DNA of 64,000 nucleotides, taken from positions 62,001 to 126,000 of the forward strand of contig JACPYT010000010.1 of NCBI GenBank assembly GCA_016195805.1, read 5' to 3'. Under the pieces are notes generated by a model that did no database searches, was not told the DNA's origin, and saw nothing but the letters and a program-made list of their open reading frames with translations. The position numbers and the translations under genes were made by a program. The stretch comes from Hydrogenophilales bacterium. Lineage in GTDB: Bacteria > Pseudomonadota > Gammaproteobacteria > Burkholderiales > Thiobacillaceae. Positions 7,261-24,416 of this stretch are shown here, one piece after another (the stretch's first letter is position 1; each line of letters starts with the position of its first letter).

Positions 7261-7298
7261 AAAATAAAAAAAGGGTGAAGCGCGGATTCGCTTCACCC
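7261..7298 (-). terminator. Riboswitch-controlled intrinsic terminator
   Basis: A perfect 10-bp stem (GGGTGAAGCG / CGCTTCACCC at 7273-7298) with a 6-base loop is followed on the minus strand by seven Ts. It lies directly between the second glycine aptamer and gcvT. Part of the stem sequence is next to the aptamer P1 region, so an antiterminated form with glycine bound is likely. Confidence 0.85.
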
Positions 7299-7299
7299 C

Positions 7300-7501
7300 T
7301 CTGTCCTTGGTACCTGAGAGATTACGGCCGGTGGTCCAATCAAACCAGCGTGCCGCTGCCCCTTCGGTGGCGATCGTGCGATCGCGCTCTCCAGAGTGTT
7401 TTCCCAGGATATTCCTGGGGGTTGCGGTCCTTTTGCCTGAGCGATTCCGGGTGAATTGCGCCTTCGGCGGCATGCGGTGCATGCGCTCTCCCGCAACGGG
7501 A
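7300..7501 (-). ncRNA. Tandem glycine riboswitch (two aptamers)
   Basis: Read on the minus strand, aptamer 1 contains GCGGGAGAGC, GCCGAAGGCGCAA and CTCAGGCAAAAGGACCGC. Aptamer 2 contains CTGGAGAGCGC, CACCGAAGGGGCA and CTCAGGTACCAAGGACAGAG. GGAGAGY, CCGAAGG and CTCAGGYAMMAGGAC are the conserved glycine-riboswitch core. The two aptamers are joined by a short linker and precede gcvT, the classic arrangement. Glycine is expected to switch the operon on by preventing the terminator at 7261-7298. Confidence 0.95.
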
Positions 7502-7507
7502 ACGCGC

Positions 7508-15981: not shown

Positions 15982-16608
15982 CTAACGCAAGCCCTGAATA
16001 TAAGCGGCCACCGCCTTCATGTCAGCATCCGTCAACTTTGCCGCAATGGTGCGCATCATCTTGGCGCCATCGTTTGCGCGTGTGCCGAGACGGAAATTGT
16101 TCAGTTGGGCATAGATGTAGTCGCTGTGCTGTCCGGCCAGACGCGGGAACTGGACGGGAATGCCCTTGCCTTGCGGGCCGTGGCAGGATGCACACGCCGG
16201 CACGCCGGCACCCTGGATGCCGCCGCGGAAGATTTTCTGGCCGACCAGCGCCAGTTCCTGGTCCTTGGACGTGCCTGGTTTGGGTTGCTGAGCACTGAAG
16301 TAGGCGGCCAGGTTCAGCATGTCCTGCGGGCTGAGGCTGGCGACGATACCCCCCATCACCGGGTTTTTGCGATCACCCGACTTGAAGTTGGTGAGCTGCT
16401 TGTTGATGTATTCCGCATTCAGGCCAGCCAGCCTGGGGTTGGCCGCAACGGTGCTGTTGCCATCTGCCGCGTGGCAGCCCGCACAAACCTGATTGACGAT
16501 GCTTTCTGCCGCCTTGGGGTCGCCTTTGGCCGCGGCGGGGGCGGCAGCGGGGTTGGCAAAAGCGGAGGTGGCGGCCAGTGCGGCGACCAGAGAGACGACG
16601 AGTTTCAT
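15982..16608 (-). CDS. Cytochrome c4, diheme
   Basis: A 208-residue periplasmic diheme cytochrome. A signal peptide ([18 protein letters not shown]) precedes two c-type domains with heme motifs CAGCH and CASCH, and each has a distal methionine candidate ([11 protein letters not shown] and [12 protein letters not shown]). Cytochrome c4 carries electrons from the bc1 complex to terminal oxidases or denitrification enzymes. AGGAG lies 6 bases before the ATG at 16608, which decides against the TTG one codon earlier. It needs the resB/ccsA machinery encoded next to it. Confidence 0.96.
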
Positions 16609-16665
16609 CAAAAGCTCCTGAGGCTTGCAAAACTTGGGAAAACGGGTAGTTTAGCGGCAACTAAT

Positions 16666-17301
16666 ATGACTGCCAAGCCCGTGCTCAATCGCGCCCAATT
16701 CCACACCTCGGTCGCCCAGCTGCGCGATTTGCCCTACAGTCGCGCCGAGATCGCGTTTGCTGGGCGATCAAACGCAGGAAAGTCGAGTGCAATCAACCTG
16801 TTGACGCGTAAAAATCGCTTGGCGTTCACGTCCAAGACGCCGGGGCGGACGCAGCTTATCAACTTTTTCGAACTGGATGCCGACACCTATCTGGTCGACC
16901 TGCCGGGTTATGGCTACGCGAAAGTGCCGCCGGAGGTGAAAGCAAAGTGGGAGGGGCTGCTGTCGCGTTACCTGCAGGAGCGTGAGGCGCTGGTGGGCAT
17001 GGTGCTGATCATGGATGCGCGCCATCCGCTCACGCCGCTGGACCGGCAGATGCTCGACTGGTTTACCCCCACCGGCAAGCCGGTCCATATCCTGTTGTCA
17101 AAAGCCGACAAGTTGTCCAACAGCGAGAAGGCGCTGACGCTGCGTCGTGTCAAGCAGGAGCTGGCCGCATTGGAAGGCGTCACTGTGCAGCTGTTTTCAA
17201 GCCTCTCCCGTGCGGGCGCCGAAGAGGCGGCAGCCTTGATCGAAGGCTGGCTTGCCCAGGCGCAACCGGCGCATCCTTACACAGCGGGGCAGCTTCAATA
17301 G
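16666..17301 (+). CDS. engB: Ribosome biogenesis GTPase EngB (YihA/YsxC)
   Basis: A 211-residue TRAFAC GTPase for late 50S subunit assembly. The G1 loop is [10 protein letters not shown]3 is DLPGYG and G4 is SKAD; the [11 protein letters not shown] switch region is typical. It is divergent from the cytochrome c4 gene with 57 bases between the starts. A longer upstream frame crosses the cytochrome gene and was rejected. Confidence 0.96.
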
Positions 17302-17315
17302 CTGGGAAACGCCCA

Positions 17316-17441
17316 CAAAAAAGCCCCGATCAAGGGAGGGATCGGGGCTGAAAAATGCCTTAAGGGGATTAAGGCATCCCGCTCAGGGAGGAGAAGCGGG
17401 AGACGATGCAAGACCGTCTGCTACTAAAGAGCAGACCGGTC
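17316..17441 (-). ncRNA. Candidate minus-strand small RNA with anti-Shine-Dalgarno loops
   Basis: Four stem-loops lie in 126 bases between engB and hemB. From 5' to 3' on the minus strand: an 11-bp stem with one bulge (17412-17441), a hairpin with loop TCTCCTCCCTG (17378-17400), an 8-bp stem with loop ATCCCCT (17355-17377), and a 10-bp stem with loop CCTCCCTT (17322-17349). The last is followed on the minus strand by six Ts, an intrinsic terminator. There is no minus-strand gene upstream that would need a terminator here. Two loops expose CCUCC, the complement of a Shine-Dalgarno, as in trans-acting sRNAs. It may instead be a cis leader of hemB; a structured motif called hemB is described before this gene in betaproteobacteria, and I cannot tell whether this is that motif. 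Confidence 0.6.
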
Positions 17442-17450
17442 CGGAAATAG

Positions 17451-18494
<1,044 letters not shown>

Positions 18495-20478: not shown

Positions 20479-21303
20479 ATGAAATTCAATCTGAAAGTGG
20501 TGCAAGCAAGTTTGATTGCTGCCATGGCCACGGCAAGCGCCGGTTCCATGGCTGCCGTTTTTCCTGATTTCCAGGTGTCGGAAGGCTCCGTACCTGGGAG
20601 CGGTGTGAATACGTTTACTGCAGACAAGATCACCGGCAATTACGTGGAAATCGTTACGTTCACTCCGACGGGCGTGGGCACGGGTACGTTTGACACCTCC
20701 ATCAAATGGCAGGCGGGTCAGTATGTCGCAAACGACGGGACAACCCCTCTTACCACTCAACTGGGTAGCTTTGGCTCCGCCGGTTATGGGCTCTATGCAC
20801 TGCTGCAAGGTTCGGGAACATTCTCGACCAGCGGCGCTGGCGTGACGACCTTCAACTTCAATCCGGGTGGCAGCCTGAATGTCTGGATCGACCCCAACAG
20901 CAACACGACTTTTACTGCTCCTGCCACGGGTGCGGGTGCCTGGACGACGGGCAATACTGGCGATCCGGACTACCTGATTGCATCTGGCGCCTTGTTTGGC
21001 GGCCAGGGTACGCTTAATCCCACCCTGAGTACCTGTGTGGGCGGCATCAACTGCGGCAGCTTCGGCACGTCGACCAGCTTCCTGCTGACCGCACTCGGTT
21101 CGCAATATTTCACCGGCCCGGTGCCCTTCTACAACGTTTCGTTCCAGTCCGGCCAGCTGAACTCCTTCCAGGTGGCTGGCACGCAAAGCATCAACGGTTC
21201 GCTGGATGTGGTGTTCGGCGTGCCGGAACCGACCAGCATCGCACTGATGGGTTTGGGCCTGGTTGGATTGGGTGTCAGCCTGCGTCGTCGCAAGCAAGCC
21301 TGA
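20479..21303 (+). CDS. PEP-CTERM sorting-domain secreted protein
   Basis: A 274-residue exported protein. It has a signal peptide (residues 1 to about 29, ending SAGSMAA) and a Gly/Thr/Ser-rich body that looks like beta structure. The C-terminal sorting signal is VPEPTSIALMGLGLVGLG followed by SLRRRKQA. Exosortase cleaves at the PEP motif and the protein is moved to the cell surface or extracellular matrix. The exosortase is not in this window. A strong Shine-Dalgarno (AAGGAG) lies 8 bases before the ATG. Transcription is probably sigma-54 and PrsR dependent (see 20319-20417) and ends at the terminator at 21331-21363. Confidence 0.92.
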   Translation: MKFNLKVVQASLIAAMATASAGSMAAVFPDFQVSEGSVPGSGVNTFTADKITGNYVEIVTFTPTGVGTGTFDTSIKWQAGQYVANDGTTPLTTQLGSFGSAGYGLYALLQGSGTFSTSGAGVTTFNFNPGGSLNVWIDPNSNTTFTAPATGAGAWTTGNTGDPDYLIASGALFGGQGTLNPTLSTCVGGINCGSFGTSTSFLLTALGSQYFTGPVPFYNVSFQSGQLNSFQVAGTQSINGSLDVVFGVPEPTSIALMGLGLVGLGVSLRRRKQA

Positions 21304-21608: not shown

Positions 21609-24416
21609 CTAGCGTTTGCCGGACGCCTCGATTGTCTTGAGCAAGGCGGTGGCCTTGTCTCGCTCGCCGAAGTGCTGGGGTGACGCCAGGAGTTTTTGTA
21701 GCAATGCCTGGGCCTCGGCGTTTTGCCCGGATTTGGCCAGCGCGGCAGCCCAGTGGTACTGCACGGCAGGCGACTTGGGCGTGGCCAACGCAGCCTGTTT
21801 CAACAGGGGGGCTGCGTCCTGGGTTTTACCCTGCTGCAACAGGCTCCAGCCATAGGTATCCATGACCACCGGATTGGATGGCTCCAGGCTATAGGCGCGT
21901 TGCGCATATGCATAAGCAGCGGGGTTGTTCTGTTCCTCGAGCACGGCAGCGAGATTGTTGAGCGCCATCACATGGTTGGGGGCGGCTTTCACAATCTGCT
22001 GATACTCGGCGATGGCCTGGCCGGTTTGCTGTTTTTGCAGATAAATCCCTGCCAGATACATGCGGAAGACGCTGTCATTGGCGTGCTGCTTGAGCCACAG
22101 CTGGGCAACCTGCTCCGCCTGCGCGGGCTTGCCCGCACGCAGCAGGGCAAGGTGGTAGGTTGCTGTGGTATCCGATGAGGGGGCGGTTTGGTAGGCGCGT
22201 GCCAAGGCCTGCAGGGAGGCATCCGGTTTCTTGAAGCGTGCTGCAAGTTCGGCCTCCAGATTGTAACCGGTGGCGGACTGTGGATTCAGTGTCTGGATCG
22301 CGCGGGCTTCCTGCAGGGCGGCCTCCTGCTGACCCAGCGCGGCATACAGCCCGGCCAGTGCAATGTGCGCATCAAGATAGTTGGGTGCCAGACGGATCGA
22401 TTTCTGCAGCGATTTCTGTGCCGCATTCATGTCCCCGGCAACCCGTTGCGCCCAAGCCAGGCGGTACCAGGCGACGGCCGAGTTGGGCGCCCGGTTGGTG
22501 ACGTTGGTGTAGGTGTCGATCGCATCCTTTTTGTGGCCTGCGCCGAGTTGCGCCTGGCCCAGGTTGTCGAGGAACGCCGGGTTGCCGTTGTTGGCCTGCG
22601 CGGCCTTCTGCGCCACTTCAAGGGCCAGTTCGGGCTGGCGCGTTCGATTCATGTAATACAGGGTCAGCTGGTTGACGGGCTCAAGCGCGTCCGGATGTGA
22701 CTGGATGGCTTTCTTGAGATAGGTCACGAATTCATTCTGATCGCCCAAGGCCAGGGCAATACGTGCCTGTCCCATGAGTGCGCCAAGGTTGTCAGGCGAT
22801 TTCGCCAGGATGCGCTTGAAGCGTTCGCTTGCCTGGGCGGGTTTCTTTTCCTGGATATCCAGGTTGGCCAAGGCGTTGGCTGCCGGCAAAAACTTGGCGT
22901 CCACGGTCAGGCTTTGCTCGAATGCCTGACGTGCGGCAGCCGGATTGTGCTGCATGAGATAAATGCGGCCCATCAGCACGTGGGGAAGCGGGCTGGTCGG
23001 CTGCGCGGCGGCCATTTTCTGCAGGGTGGCCAGCGCGCCCTTCAAATCGGCCTTGCCGACCTGCGAGGCCACAAGCAGCAAGTAAGCCTGAGGATCGTCC
23101 GGGTTGGCGGTGATGACGGATTCCAGCCCCTGGATTCCTTGCTGGTCGCCGGTGAGCAACTGGTTCTGCGCCAAGGTACCGCGGATGACCTTGTCTTTCG
23201 GGTCAAGGGTGCTGGCCCGGCTCAGATAGGCCATGCCACGATCGGTTTCTCCCAGGTTGAGGGTCGCCTGGCCGGCCAGAAGGAACGCCTTGGCGTCGTT
23301 TCCCTGCGCGAGCAGCGGTTCCAGCGTCTTGATCACGTCTGCATTGGAGCCCATGCGCAACTGCGTGGCAGCCAGGAGCAGGCGCGCCTCGGGCAGTTCG
23401 GTCGTGCTGAGCACCTTGTTGAAACTGGAGAGTGCGATTTCGTCATTCTTGGTGGCATAGTTGATCGTGCCATAGAGCAGGTTCACCTGTGCGTTGTCCG
23501 GGTCGTCCTTGAGTACCTGCTGAAGCAGGCTGCTGGCATCATTGTTCCGGCCTTGCTGGTAATACAGGTAGGCTTTCAGATATTTGGCCAGCGGCGCATG
23601 CGGGCGCATGCCGATGAGCCGCTTGATTTCACCCTCGGCTTCTTTCATCCGGTTGACCGACAGCAGGGTCATCGCCTTGTAGGCGATGGCGTCGAAGTCT
23701 TCGGCCTTGATCGCGAGTGCATGGTCATAGGCGGCAAGCGCTTCGTCGGGTCGTTTGATGGCGCGATAGAGGTCGCCCAGCAGATACCAGGATTCCAGAT
23801 GTCCCGGATCGAGAGCGGTGGCCTGTTTGGCGCTGGCCACCGCCGCGTCCGCGTGGCCTGCGCTGTATTCGCAACGGGCACGTCCCAGATAGCCCGGCGC
23901 GAAGGACTTGTCGGTCTGGATCGCGCGATCGAACAATGGGCAGCCTTCGGGATACTTGCCGAGGCCGAGCAGAGCATTGCCGCGCAGGTCCAGAATCTGA
24001 ACCAGGATTCCAGGTTCTTCCGTATCGTCGGCGGCAAGCGTGTCGAGAATCTGCTGAAAATTGCCTTGGTAAAGCTGGGCCCGTGCGATCGGGATCCGTG
24101 CGCTTTTCGGGTTGATGCCAAGCTGTACCGCCTTCTCAAGCTGGATTTCCGCTTCGCCCCCCAACCGCAGATCCAGGTAGGCGTTGCCCAGCAACCAGCG
24201 TGCCTCAGCATTCTTGGGGTCCTTCTGGACCGCGTTTTTCAGTTCGAGAATGCTGGCTCGCGTATTGCCCTTGCTTTGAAAGTCCTTGGCGCGCTCGATA
24301 TGCTCCGCGACGCTGAGATGGGCGCTGCGATCGCAGCCTGACAGTGATGAAGCCGAGGAAAGTACCAGCGCGAGCGAAAGGGCGAGCGGTGCGATACGTG
24401 GGAAATGGGGGCGCAT
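21609..24416 (-). CDS. prsT: PEP-CTERM system TPR-repeat lipoprotein, second copy (PrsT type)
   Basis: A 935-residue lipoprotein. The signal peptide ends in the lipobox LSGC (Cys about residue 28). The rest is a long row of about 23-25 TPR repeats (for example ARWLLGNAYLDLRLGGEAEI, ALNNLAAVLEEQNNPAAYAY). This family is found only in genomes with the PEP-CTERM/EPS system and is thought to be a large scaffold for export or matrix assembly; direct evidence of function is limited. It starts 7 bases after the stop of a paralogue of almost the same size (926 residues), a tandem duplication. Confidence 0.9.
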   Translation of the reverse strand: MRPHFPRIAPLALSLALVLSSASSLSGCDRSAHLSVAEHIERAKDFQSKGNTRASILELKNAVQKDPKNAEARWLLGNAYLDLRLGGEAEIQLEKAVQLGINPKSARIPIARAQLYQGNFQQILDTLAADDTEEPGILVQILDLRGNALLGLGKYPEGCPLFDRAIQTDKSFAPGYLGRARCEYSAGHADAAVASAKQATALDPGHLESWYLLGDLYRAIKRPDEALAAYDHALAIKAEDFDAIAYKAMTLLSVNRMKEAEGEIKRLIGMRPHAPLAKYLKAYLYYQQGRNNDASSLLQQVLKDDPDNAQVNLLYGTINYATKNDEIALSSFNKVLSTTELPEARLLLAATQLRMGSNADVIKTLEPLLAQGNDAKAFLLAGQATLNLGETDRGMAYLSRASTLDPKDKVIRGTLAQNQLLTGDQQGIQGLESVITANPDDPQAYLLLVASQVGKADLKGALATLQKMAAAQPTSPLPHVLMGRIYLMQHNPAAARQAFEQSLTVDAKFLPAANALANLDIQEKKPAQASERFKRILAKSPDNLGALMGQARIALALGDQNEFVTYLKKAIQSHPDALEPVNQLTLYYMNRTRQPELALEVAQKAAQANNGNPAFLDNLGQAQLGAGHKKDAIDTYTNVTNRAPNSAVAWYRLAWAQRVAGDMNAAQKSLQKSIRLAPNYLDAHIALAGLYAALGQQEAALQEARAIQTLNPQSATGYNLEAELAARFKKPDASLQALARAYQTAPSSDTTATYHLALLRAGKPAQAEQVAQLWLKQHANDSVFRMYLAGIYLQKQQTGQAIAEYQQIVKAAPNHVMALNNLAAVLEEQNNPAAYAYAQRAYSLEPSNPVVMDTYGWSLLQQGKTQDAAPLLKQAALATPKSPAVQYHWAAALAKSGQNAEAQALLQKLLASPQHFGERDKATALLKTIEASGKR

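Follow-up and report, generated by a model that had tools for sequence, protein, structure and literature searches.

The region between engB and hemB at positions 17316-17441 of the window (the whole stretch of 64,000 nt that was analysed) carries four hairpins in a row, and raises the question of which strand is read into RNA here, what drives its transcription and on what such an RNA could act. The initial annotation had proposed a minus-strand small RNA (sRNA). Indeed, cmscan with Rfam 15 places the minus-strand element in an already catalogued sRNA family, anti-hemB (RF02837), at 72.2 bits against a gathering cut-off of 49.5, with E-values of 1.9e-16 in 2 kb and 6e-15 in 64 kb. This is the sole match over cut-off at the locus when both strands are searched; on the plus strand no Rfam family passes at the locus, asX2 reaching 17.2 bits for a cut-off of 70. 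The current name of the family also agrees with the earlier suspicion that the 'hemB' motif is the same RNA viewed from the other strand, and the window RNA lies, as members of anti-hemB do, next to hemB and divergent from it. The features of the locus are as follows.

15982-16611, minus strand: two-haem cytochrome c beyond engB, a conserved neighbour of the locus (ORF, tblastn), which we take to be c4-type
16666-17301, plus strand: engB (ysxC/yihA), convergent with the sRNA (ORF, tblastn of relatives)
17403-17315, minus strand: anti-hemB sRNA, match to Rfam RF02837
17316-17419, minus strand: predicted whole transcript of about 104 nt, its start placed by promoter spacing; ncS04 of B. cenocepacia has 105 nt
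17418-17402, minus strand: 5' hairpin SL0, GACGGT...ATCGTC, outside the Rfam model (fold, covariation in the genus)
17400-17378, minus strand: hairpin SL1 with the first anti-Shine-Dalgarno loop, UCUCCUCCCUG, at 17394-17384 (fold, Rfam match)
17376-17356, minus strand: hairpin SL2 (fold, Rfam match)
17349-17322, minus strand: hairpin SL3, the terminator stem, with the second anti-Shine-Dalgarno loop, CCCUCCCUU, at 17340-17332 (fold, terminator scan, covariation)
17322-17317, minus strand: terminator U run (sequence, terminator scan)
17454-17425, minus strand: sigmaE-type promoter, GGAACT-N18-TCTTTA, with the -35 element GGAACT at 17454-17449 and the -10 element TCTTTA at 17430-17425
17484-18494, plus strand: hemB, divergent from the sRNA (ORF; presumed GTG start, the listed ORF opening at 17472)

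The strong minus-strand terminator described beforehand is present in the sequence at 17349-17317, where the 10-bp stem of SL3 is followed by six T, and no minus-strand gene lies upstream of it, hemB being on the plus strand from about 17484. By itself this terminator is not remarkable, since the scan returned one site in 401 bases with 0.4 expected. The 94-nt stretch as a whole folds at -40.2 kcal/mol compared to -20.6 in shuffles (z -7.4), and none of 200 shuffles is as good. The loops TCTCCTCCCTG (17394-17384) and CCCTCCCTT (17340-17332) had been quoted correctly and are mostly unpaired by computation, with an unpaired probability of about 1.0 for most of the CUCC and CCUCCC bases of SL1 and SL3. 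Furthermore, the SL1 loop motif CUCCCUG is retained in most of the loci found in other orders.

All four hairpins first described exist in the sequence, and three of them are conserved in the RNA. The fourth, at 17411-17441, holds a 7-bp inverted repeat (GTCTGCT/AGCAGAC) in the promoter region; it overlaps the -10 region and the likely start site and is thus not wholly within the RNA. A repeat of at least 6 bp at this position occurs in 5 of 30 genus loci (17% vs 5% in shuffles), and the hairpin was rejected both as an operator and as a part of the RNA because it is not conserved. The 5' end of the predicted RNA carries instead a different hairpin, SL0, which the initial annotation did not list.

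Among relatives, 51 of 60 pass the RF02837 cut-off, while at an E-value of 1e-8 the model matches 36 of 274 genomes of the class; as far as such searches tell, the family is either patchy or too diverged for the model. Within the same genome, the search for paralogues with RF02837 gave further matches of 23.5 bits at most, a loose level at which 13 of 14 control genomes match as well. The window RNA scores 24.8 bits with RF02278 (Betaproteobacteria toxic small RNA) and 23.8 bits with RF02232 (sX13), each under a cut-off of 50, and falls in neither family.

In order to assign the strand, covariation and G-U pairs were considered, a check that had been set beforehand as a possible refutation of the minus-strand reading. 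In an alignment of 28 of the 51 Burkholderiales loci, 10 of the 16 pairs of SL1 and SL3 are changed on both sides and 91.1% of the cells pair. None of 500 shuffles reaches any of the five covariation measures, and shifting the partner by one column lowers the pairing to 56-57%. For the terminator stem SL3, both-side changes are seen in 8 of 9 pairs. A further alignment (A3) was kept out of the pair counts, as it had been fitted to its own model. RNAalifold gives similar energies for both strands of the 28-locus alignment (-23.1 and -20.8), hence energy alone leaves the strand undecided. Over 74 distinct sequences, G-U pairs number 110 on the sRNA strand vs 50 on the complement, and 53 of the 74 fold better as the sRNA strand; the window sequence is an exception, its three-hairpin core giving -40.2 on the sRNA strand and a slightly better -41.6 on the complement. 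In the genus, one pair of SL0 (about GACGRT...AYCGTC) varies over the 31 loci between G-U (13 loci), A-U (11) and G-C (7), and in the 13 loci with G-U the plus strand would have a C-A mismatch. Covariation and these G-U pairs valid on one strand only fix the minus strand as that of the RNA. A plus-strand hemB leader or riboswitch was rejected, given the G-U pairs and the lack of any plus-strand Rfam match over cut-off at the locus.

A transcribed counterpart adds to the minus-strand reading. In Burkholderia cenocepacia J2315, ncS04 is listed as anti-hemB, with 105 nt and a mapped start, its 3' end coming from RACE and dRNA-seq, and it is among the RNAs of the Northern panels (PMC5688073). It is reported as independently transcribed, with neighbours oriented <- -> <- as at the window locus (PMC4603805), and as co-purifying with Hfq (PMC4603805, PMC5688073). 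In B. pseudomallei a predicted counterpart has been typed as trans-acting (PMC3521395). According to a review, hemB is a predicted target of Bc7, which itself co-purified with Hfq (PMC6321483); judging from Rfam's name 'Burkholderia RNA 7', Bc7 is perhaps the anti-hemB RNA. The published table for ncS04 shows no significant change in any of its seven columns, SDS was also tested in B. cenocepacia, and the same source describes short stress as largely not inducing sRNAs and Rfam matches as conveying no information on function (PMC5688073). Transcription of anti-hemB has been documented in Burkholderia only, and is predicted from sequence in the organism of the window.

We next turn to the promoter, which the initial annotation had not noted. 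Upstream of the RNA, GGAACT is the sole near-invariant block in the genus: it is found in 30 of 31 loci, the remaining one having N at this place. The spacer of 18 nt from GGAACT to TCTTTA corresponds to 17 nt in the GAACTA/TCTTT convention, and the position of the promoter puts the RNA start near 17419. GAACT[TA] within 70 nt upstream is present in 63 of 82 loci (79 of anti-hemB type and 3 of sX13), compared to 1.2% of 6431 background windows and 3.4% of shuffles. A fuller score was based on GAACTT and TCnnA separated by 15-18 nt, a motif that we take to be the RpoE/AlgU promoter consensus. At a threshold of 8 of 9, it is reached by 11 of 31 genus loci, 17 of 20 loci from other Burkholderiales (one per genome), 21 of 28 from other orders and none of the 3 sX13 loci. 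The window promoter scores 7 of 9, with GGAACT exact, and is below the threshold together with the others that make up 20 of the 31 genus loci; it is because of its relatives that we class it as sigmaE-type. For one betaproteobacterial SigE, promoters similar to those of RpoE have been reported (PMC3490749). Moreover, the same genome encodes an RpoE-like sigma factor of 198 aa beside RseA (PF03872, 51.5 bits) and an RseB-like protein, the names RpoE and RseB having been assigned by eye, and GAACTT-N16-TCACA lies upstream of its own rpoE.

The promoter score was also applied to a scan of named contigs, which covered at least 120 stretches with at least 125 sites, 3 of 125 having too little upstream sequence; this set overlaps with our numbered genome set (L142 and G027). 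Among the matches listed, a score of at least 8 is seen in 39 of 49 sites with both hemB and engB, 11 of 15 with polA and engB and 4 of 6 with engB only. The hemB-only sites listed reach it in 2 of 23 cases, the 1 polA-only site does not, and the sites without marker do so in 6 of 28 cases, at least 12 of the marker-less sites having no T run and looking like chance matches. The background figure is 39 of 9106. Part of the 39 sites with hemB and engB, among the matches listed, are AAACTT/TCATA in Burkholderiaceae and can also be read as a TATGAT/TATCAT-like -10 element.

This last point bears on a less likely explanation, namely that the same sRNA is transcribed with the housekeeping sigma factor or controlled by some other regulator and that GGAACT has another role. 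The length of 105 nt for ncS04 puts the start 24-27 nt before SL1 in six Burkholderiaceae loci, which is right for a TATGAT-like -10; in Burkholderia ambifaria (L123) such an element lies about 6 nt before the start so implied, and similar ones are present in the other five loci shown. The flat expression of ncS04 points the same way, as does the rarity of the GGAACT-type element at hemB-only sites (the 2 of 23 among the matches listed). Against this stand the near-invariance of GGAACT in the genus, the high share of loci with the fuller motif in other Burkholderiales and in other orders, and a simple scan of window 17200-17600 that detects no sigma70-like promoter. The Burkholderia -10 elements and the hemB-only count indicate that not every locus is under sigmaE control: judging by sequence, the sigmaE promoter seems to be missing in Burkholderia and at hemB-only loci, and the flat ncS04 profile, which counts against sigmaE control in Burkholderia, fits a promoter switch. 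For the genus of the window, RpoE is the more likely driver. As a separate observation, loci in Comamonadaceae (e.g. L112, L118 and L127) have kept hemB, with no engB found nearby and no sigmaE-type promoter seen.

The gene neighbourhood was compared across the same relatives. In Burkholderiales, hemB lies on the 5' side of the RNA in 46 of 51 loci and a convergent engB on the 3' side likewise in 46 of 51 (45 by a strict count, since the engB match of L050 extends into the RNA). Three loci (L035, L051 and L055) show engB on the same strand as the sRNA and upstream of it, with no hemB found nearby, which corresponds to a local rearrangement. Outside the order, 34 of the 274 genomes searched matched at 1e-8, beside the genome of the window and one of the same order; 28 of them gave loci, and the six weaker ones, which gave none, are outside the neighbour counts. 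In 24 of these 28 loci there is polA upstream, a convergent engB or the cytochrome c gene beyond engB: polA occurs in 15 and engB in 16 (14 by a strict count, the engB match overlapping the RNA end in L073 and L080). Within the available flanks of at most 1.5 kb, hemB is found in 0 of 28. The four loci without any marker are L062, L065, L072 and L076. L062 and L065 hold short two-hairpin tandem copies with an AAACTT-type promoter, those of L062 near RatA-like and SmpB-like genes. Among the matches listed, Steroidobacteraceae and Salinisphaera shabanensis exemplify the polA-engB arrangement, the RNA being present in S. shabanensis as a tandem array of three copies flanked by the two genes. Tandem copies are seen in Salinisphaera L095 (three), in L137 (three) and in Nitrosospira L170 (two).

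The second explanation to be weighed, that of a cis-acting antisense RNA or structured leader controlling hemB specifically, appears improbable. The adjacency of hemB in most Burkholderiales loci, the Rfam name and the prediction of hemB as a target of Bc7 (PMC6321483) speak for it. On the other hand, hemB is missing from the other-order loci within their flanks, and the G-U pairs and the plus-strand Rfam search disfavour a leader. In addition, transcription from the promoter starts upstream of hemB and runs in the opposite direction, so that an overlap would require hemB to have a long leader. The position beside hemB seems to be particular to the lineage and does not oblige hemB to be the target. 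The reading as a mere terminator region, bidirectional or serving engB/hemB, with no sRNA at all, to which the strong terminator hairpin would lend itself, is very hard to reconcile with the further conserved hairpins and their nearly invariant loop, the conserved promoter element, the expressed counterpart and the lack of a T run on the plus-strand side.

Two other elements were seen elsewhere in the window. Tandem glycine riboswitch aptamers (RF00504, 65.5 and 57.5 bits) occupy 7291-7503 on the minus strand. The product of an ORF at 20479-21303 (plus strand) has at its end a sorting tail of PEP-CTERM-like type (VPEPTSIALMGLGLVGLGVSLRRRKQA); its neighbour at 21609-24416 (minus strand) encodes a long lipoprotein that is TPR-like, and the two are presumably part of a PEP-CTERM/exosortase system.

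The link to the polA-engB locus had also escaped the initial annotation, and the RNA was compared with the sRNAs of that locus. A model, R1, was built from 26 of the 28 other-order RNAs, the short copies L062 and L065, which lie elsewhere, having been dropped from its alignment (A2). R1 finds the window RNA first genome-wide at 55.5 bits (E 2.3e-9), the next match being at 15.7 bits, which makes the betaproteobacterial and the other-order polA-engB RNAs one family. Since the RNAalifold structure of R1 is poor (13 pairs, SL1 not captured), its scores lean on sequence and terminator. Together with the gene order, this indicates an sRNA family of the polA-engB locus, with anti-hemB as its form on the hemB side. 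The window RNA and Burkholderia anti-hemB/ncS04 share sequence, three hairpins, terminator, strand and the neighbours hemB and engB; the window genus differs by a covarying 5' hairpin outside the model and by the sigmaE-type promoter, the Burkholderia promoter appearing different.

The relation to ErsA of Pseudomonas is less direct. ErsA is a sigma22/AlgU-dependent sRNA. In Pseudomonadaceae, 19 of 30 engB loci have a promoter score of at least 8 on the engB side, including all 15 with polA adjacent, and ErsA was assigned there by position. R1 was run on these 19 loci and on 8 of 36 Pseudomonadaceae genomes. It matches the putative ErsA in 18 of the 19 loci, weakly (14.8-25.8 bits) and convergent with engB at a distance of 16-174 nt, with no match in L240; genome-wide, the engB-side site ranks first to third in 8 of 8 genomes, at weak E-values of 0.03-0.42. 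R2, a model of the Burkholderiales RNAs, gives 10.7-15.1 bits in four ErsA loci. ErsA thus placed resembles the window RNA in locus position and orientation, in a GAACTT-N17-TCAGA-type promoter and in a C-rich terminator loop such as CUUCUCCCUCCCC, whereas its SL1 and SL2 sequences differ and RF02837 is over cut-off in none of the 36 genomes. The engB side is kept, with hemB in place of polA in Burkholderiales; ErsA is described as encoded in the 'polA-engB intergenic region' (PMC8575079). ErsA would share locus and promoter type with anti-hemB, and common descent is suggested by the sequence matches.

The sX13 RNA of Xanthomonas (RF02232) likewise belongs to the polA locus, being encoded downstream of polA (PMC3771888), and has three stems; its three C-rich loops serve to repress mRNAs that carry G-rich motifs. 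It is unlike the window RNA in that it acts without Hfq (PMC3771888) and that the sigmaE-type promoter is not found in the 3 sX13 loci inspected. R1 gives 24-28 bits for two sX13 loci and R2 19-21 bits. Four tandem copies at a polA-engB locus of a further genome (G230; L089 1500-2237, minus strand) score 52-64 bits with R1, and one of these copies reaches 48.3 bits with the sX13 model, just under its cut-off of 50. Spot 42 (spf) of E. coli has the same gene order, polA-spf-yihA(engB), and is convergent with engB, but there is no sequence match of weight: 13.3 bits with R1 (E 0.38) and 11.3 bits with R2 (E 0.73), which do not support homology by sequence. It is reportedly repressed by cAMP-CRP. 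The kinship of anti-hemB with ErsA and Spot 42 in sequence may be called weak. As for the RF02278 RNAs, they also have CU-rich loops complementary to ribosome-binding sites, but they are shorter, with two hairpins. We give about even chances to the idea that a single ancient sRNA gene, which faced engB convergently in the common ancestor of Beta- and Gammaproteobacteria, gave rise to anti-hemB, ErsA, sX13 and possibly Spot 42; the original RNA would have been under sigmaE control and would have had C-rich anti-Shine-Dalgarno loops. Among the open-licence papers listed in literature searches, none ties anti-hemB to ErsA, sX13 or sigmaE, which does not imply that such a link is absent from print. 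What is new on anti-hemB is its sigmaE-type promoter, the additional hairpin at its 5' end and its place in the polA-engB-locus family.

Given these results, we consider it probable that the locus encodes an anti-hemB sRNA of about 104 nt, from the polA-engB sRNA locus, that is transcribed by RpoE and acts in trans on ribosome-binding sites via its CU-rich loops. As its sequence, its covariation and the match in Rfam show, the minus-strand RNA comprises the 5' hairpin, two loops carrying CUCCUCCC/CCUCCC and the intrinsic terminator. Judging by the predicted promoter and by the presence of rpoE-rseA-rseB in the same genome, its transcription would most likely depend on RpoE (sigmaE). The loops most likely pair in trans with purine-rich ribosome-binding sites, probably with the assistance of Hfq. 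Under envelope stress, such pairing would prevent a number of mRNAs from being initiated, the candidate targets being those whose ribosome-binding sites are AGGGAGGAG-like. This mode of action would follow the example of sX13, whose C-rich loops repress targets together with G-rich motifs near start sites (PMC3771888), and of ErsA, which lowers algC translation in a sigma22-driven loop (PMC5819304). A scan of the genome for the loop complement gave 39 sites at no more than one mismatch, one of them the locus itself, compared to 4 for the reversed pattern. Of 30 sites inspected, the start codon is rightly placed in 8 and the gene start is credible in 2, which precede GalU-like and BamB-like proteins, so named by reading of the proteins. 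This target set is unconvincing, because ribosome-binding sites are often purine-rich in this way and no more than 2 of the 30 resemble real gene starts.

Anti-hemB is widespread in Betaproteobacteria, and the reference to hemB in its name may reflect a chance order of genes. The conserved sigmaE-type promoter and the shared polA-engB locus provide a direct functional hypothesis for it. If the single ancestor holds true, anti-hemB would be a noncoding arm of the betaproteobacterial envelope stress response, with other promoters having come later in Burkholderia, Comamonadaceae and Xanthomonas.
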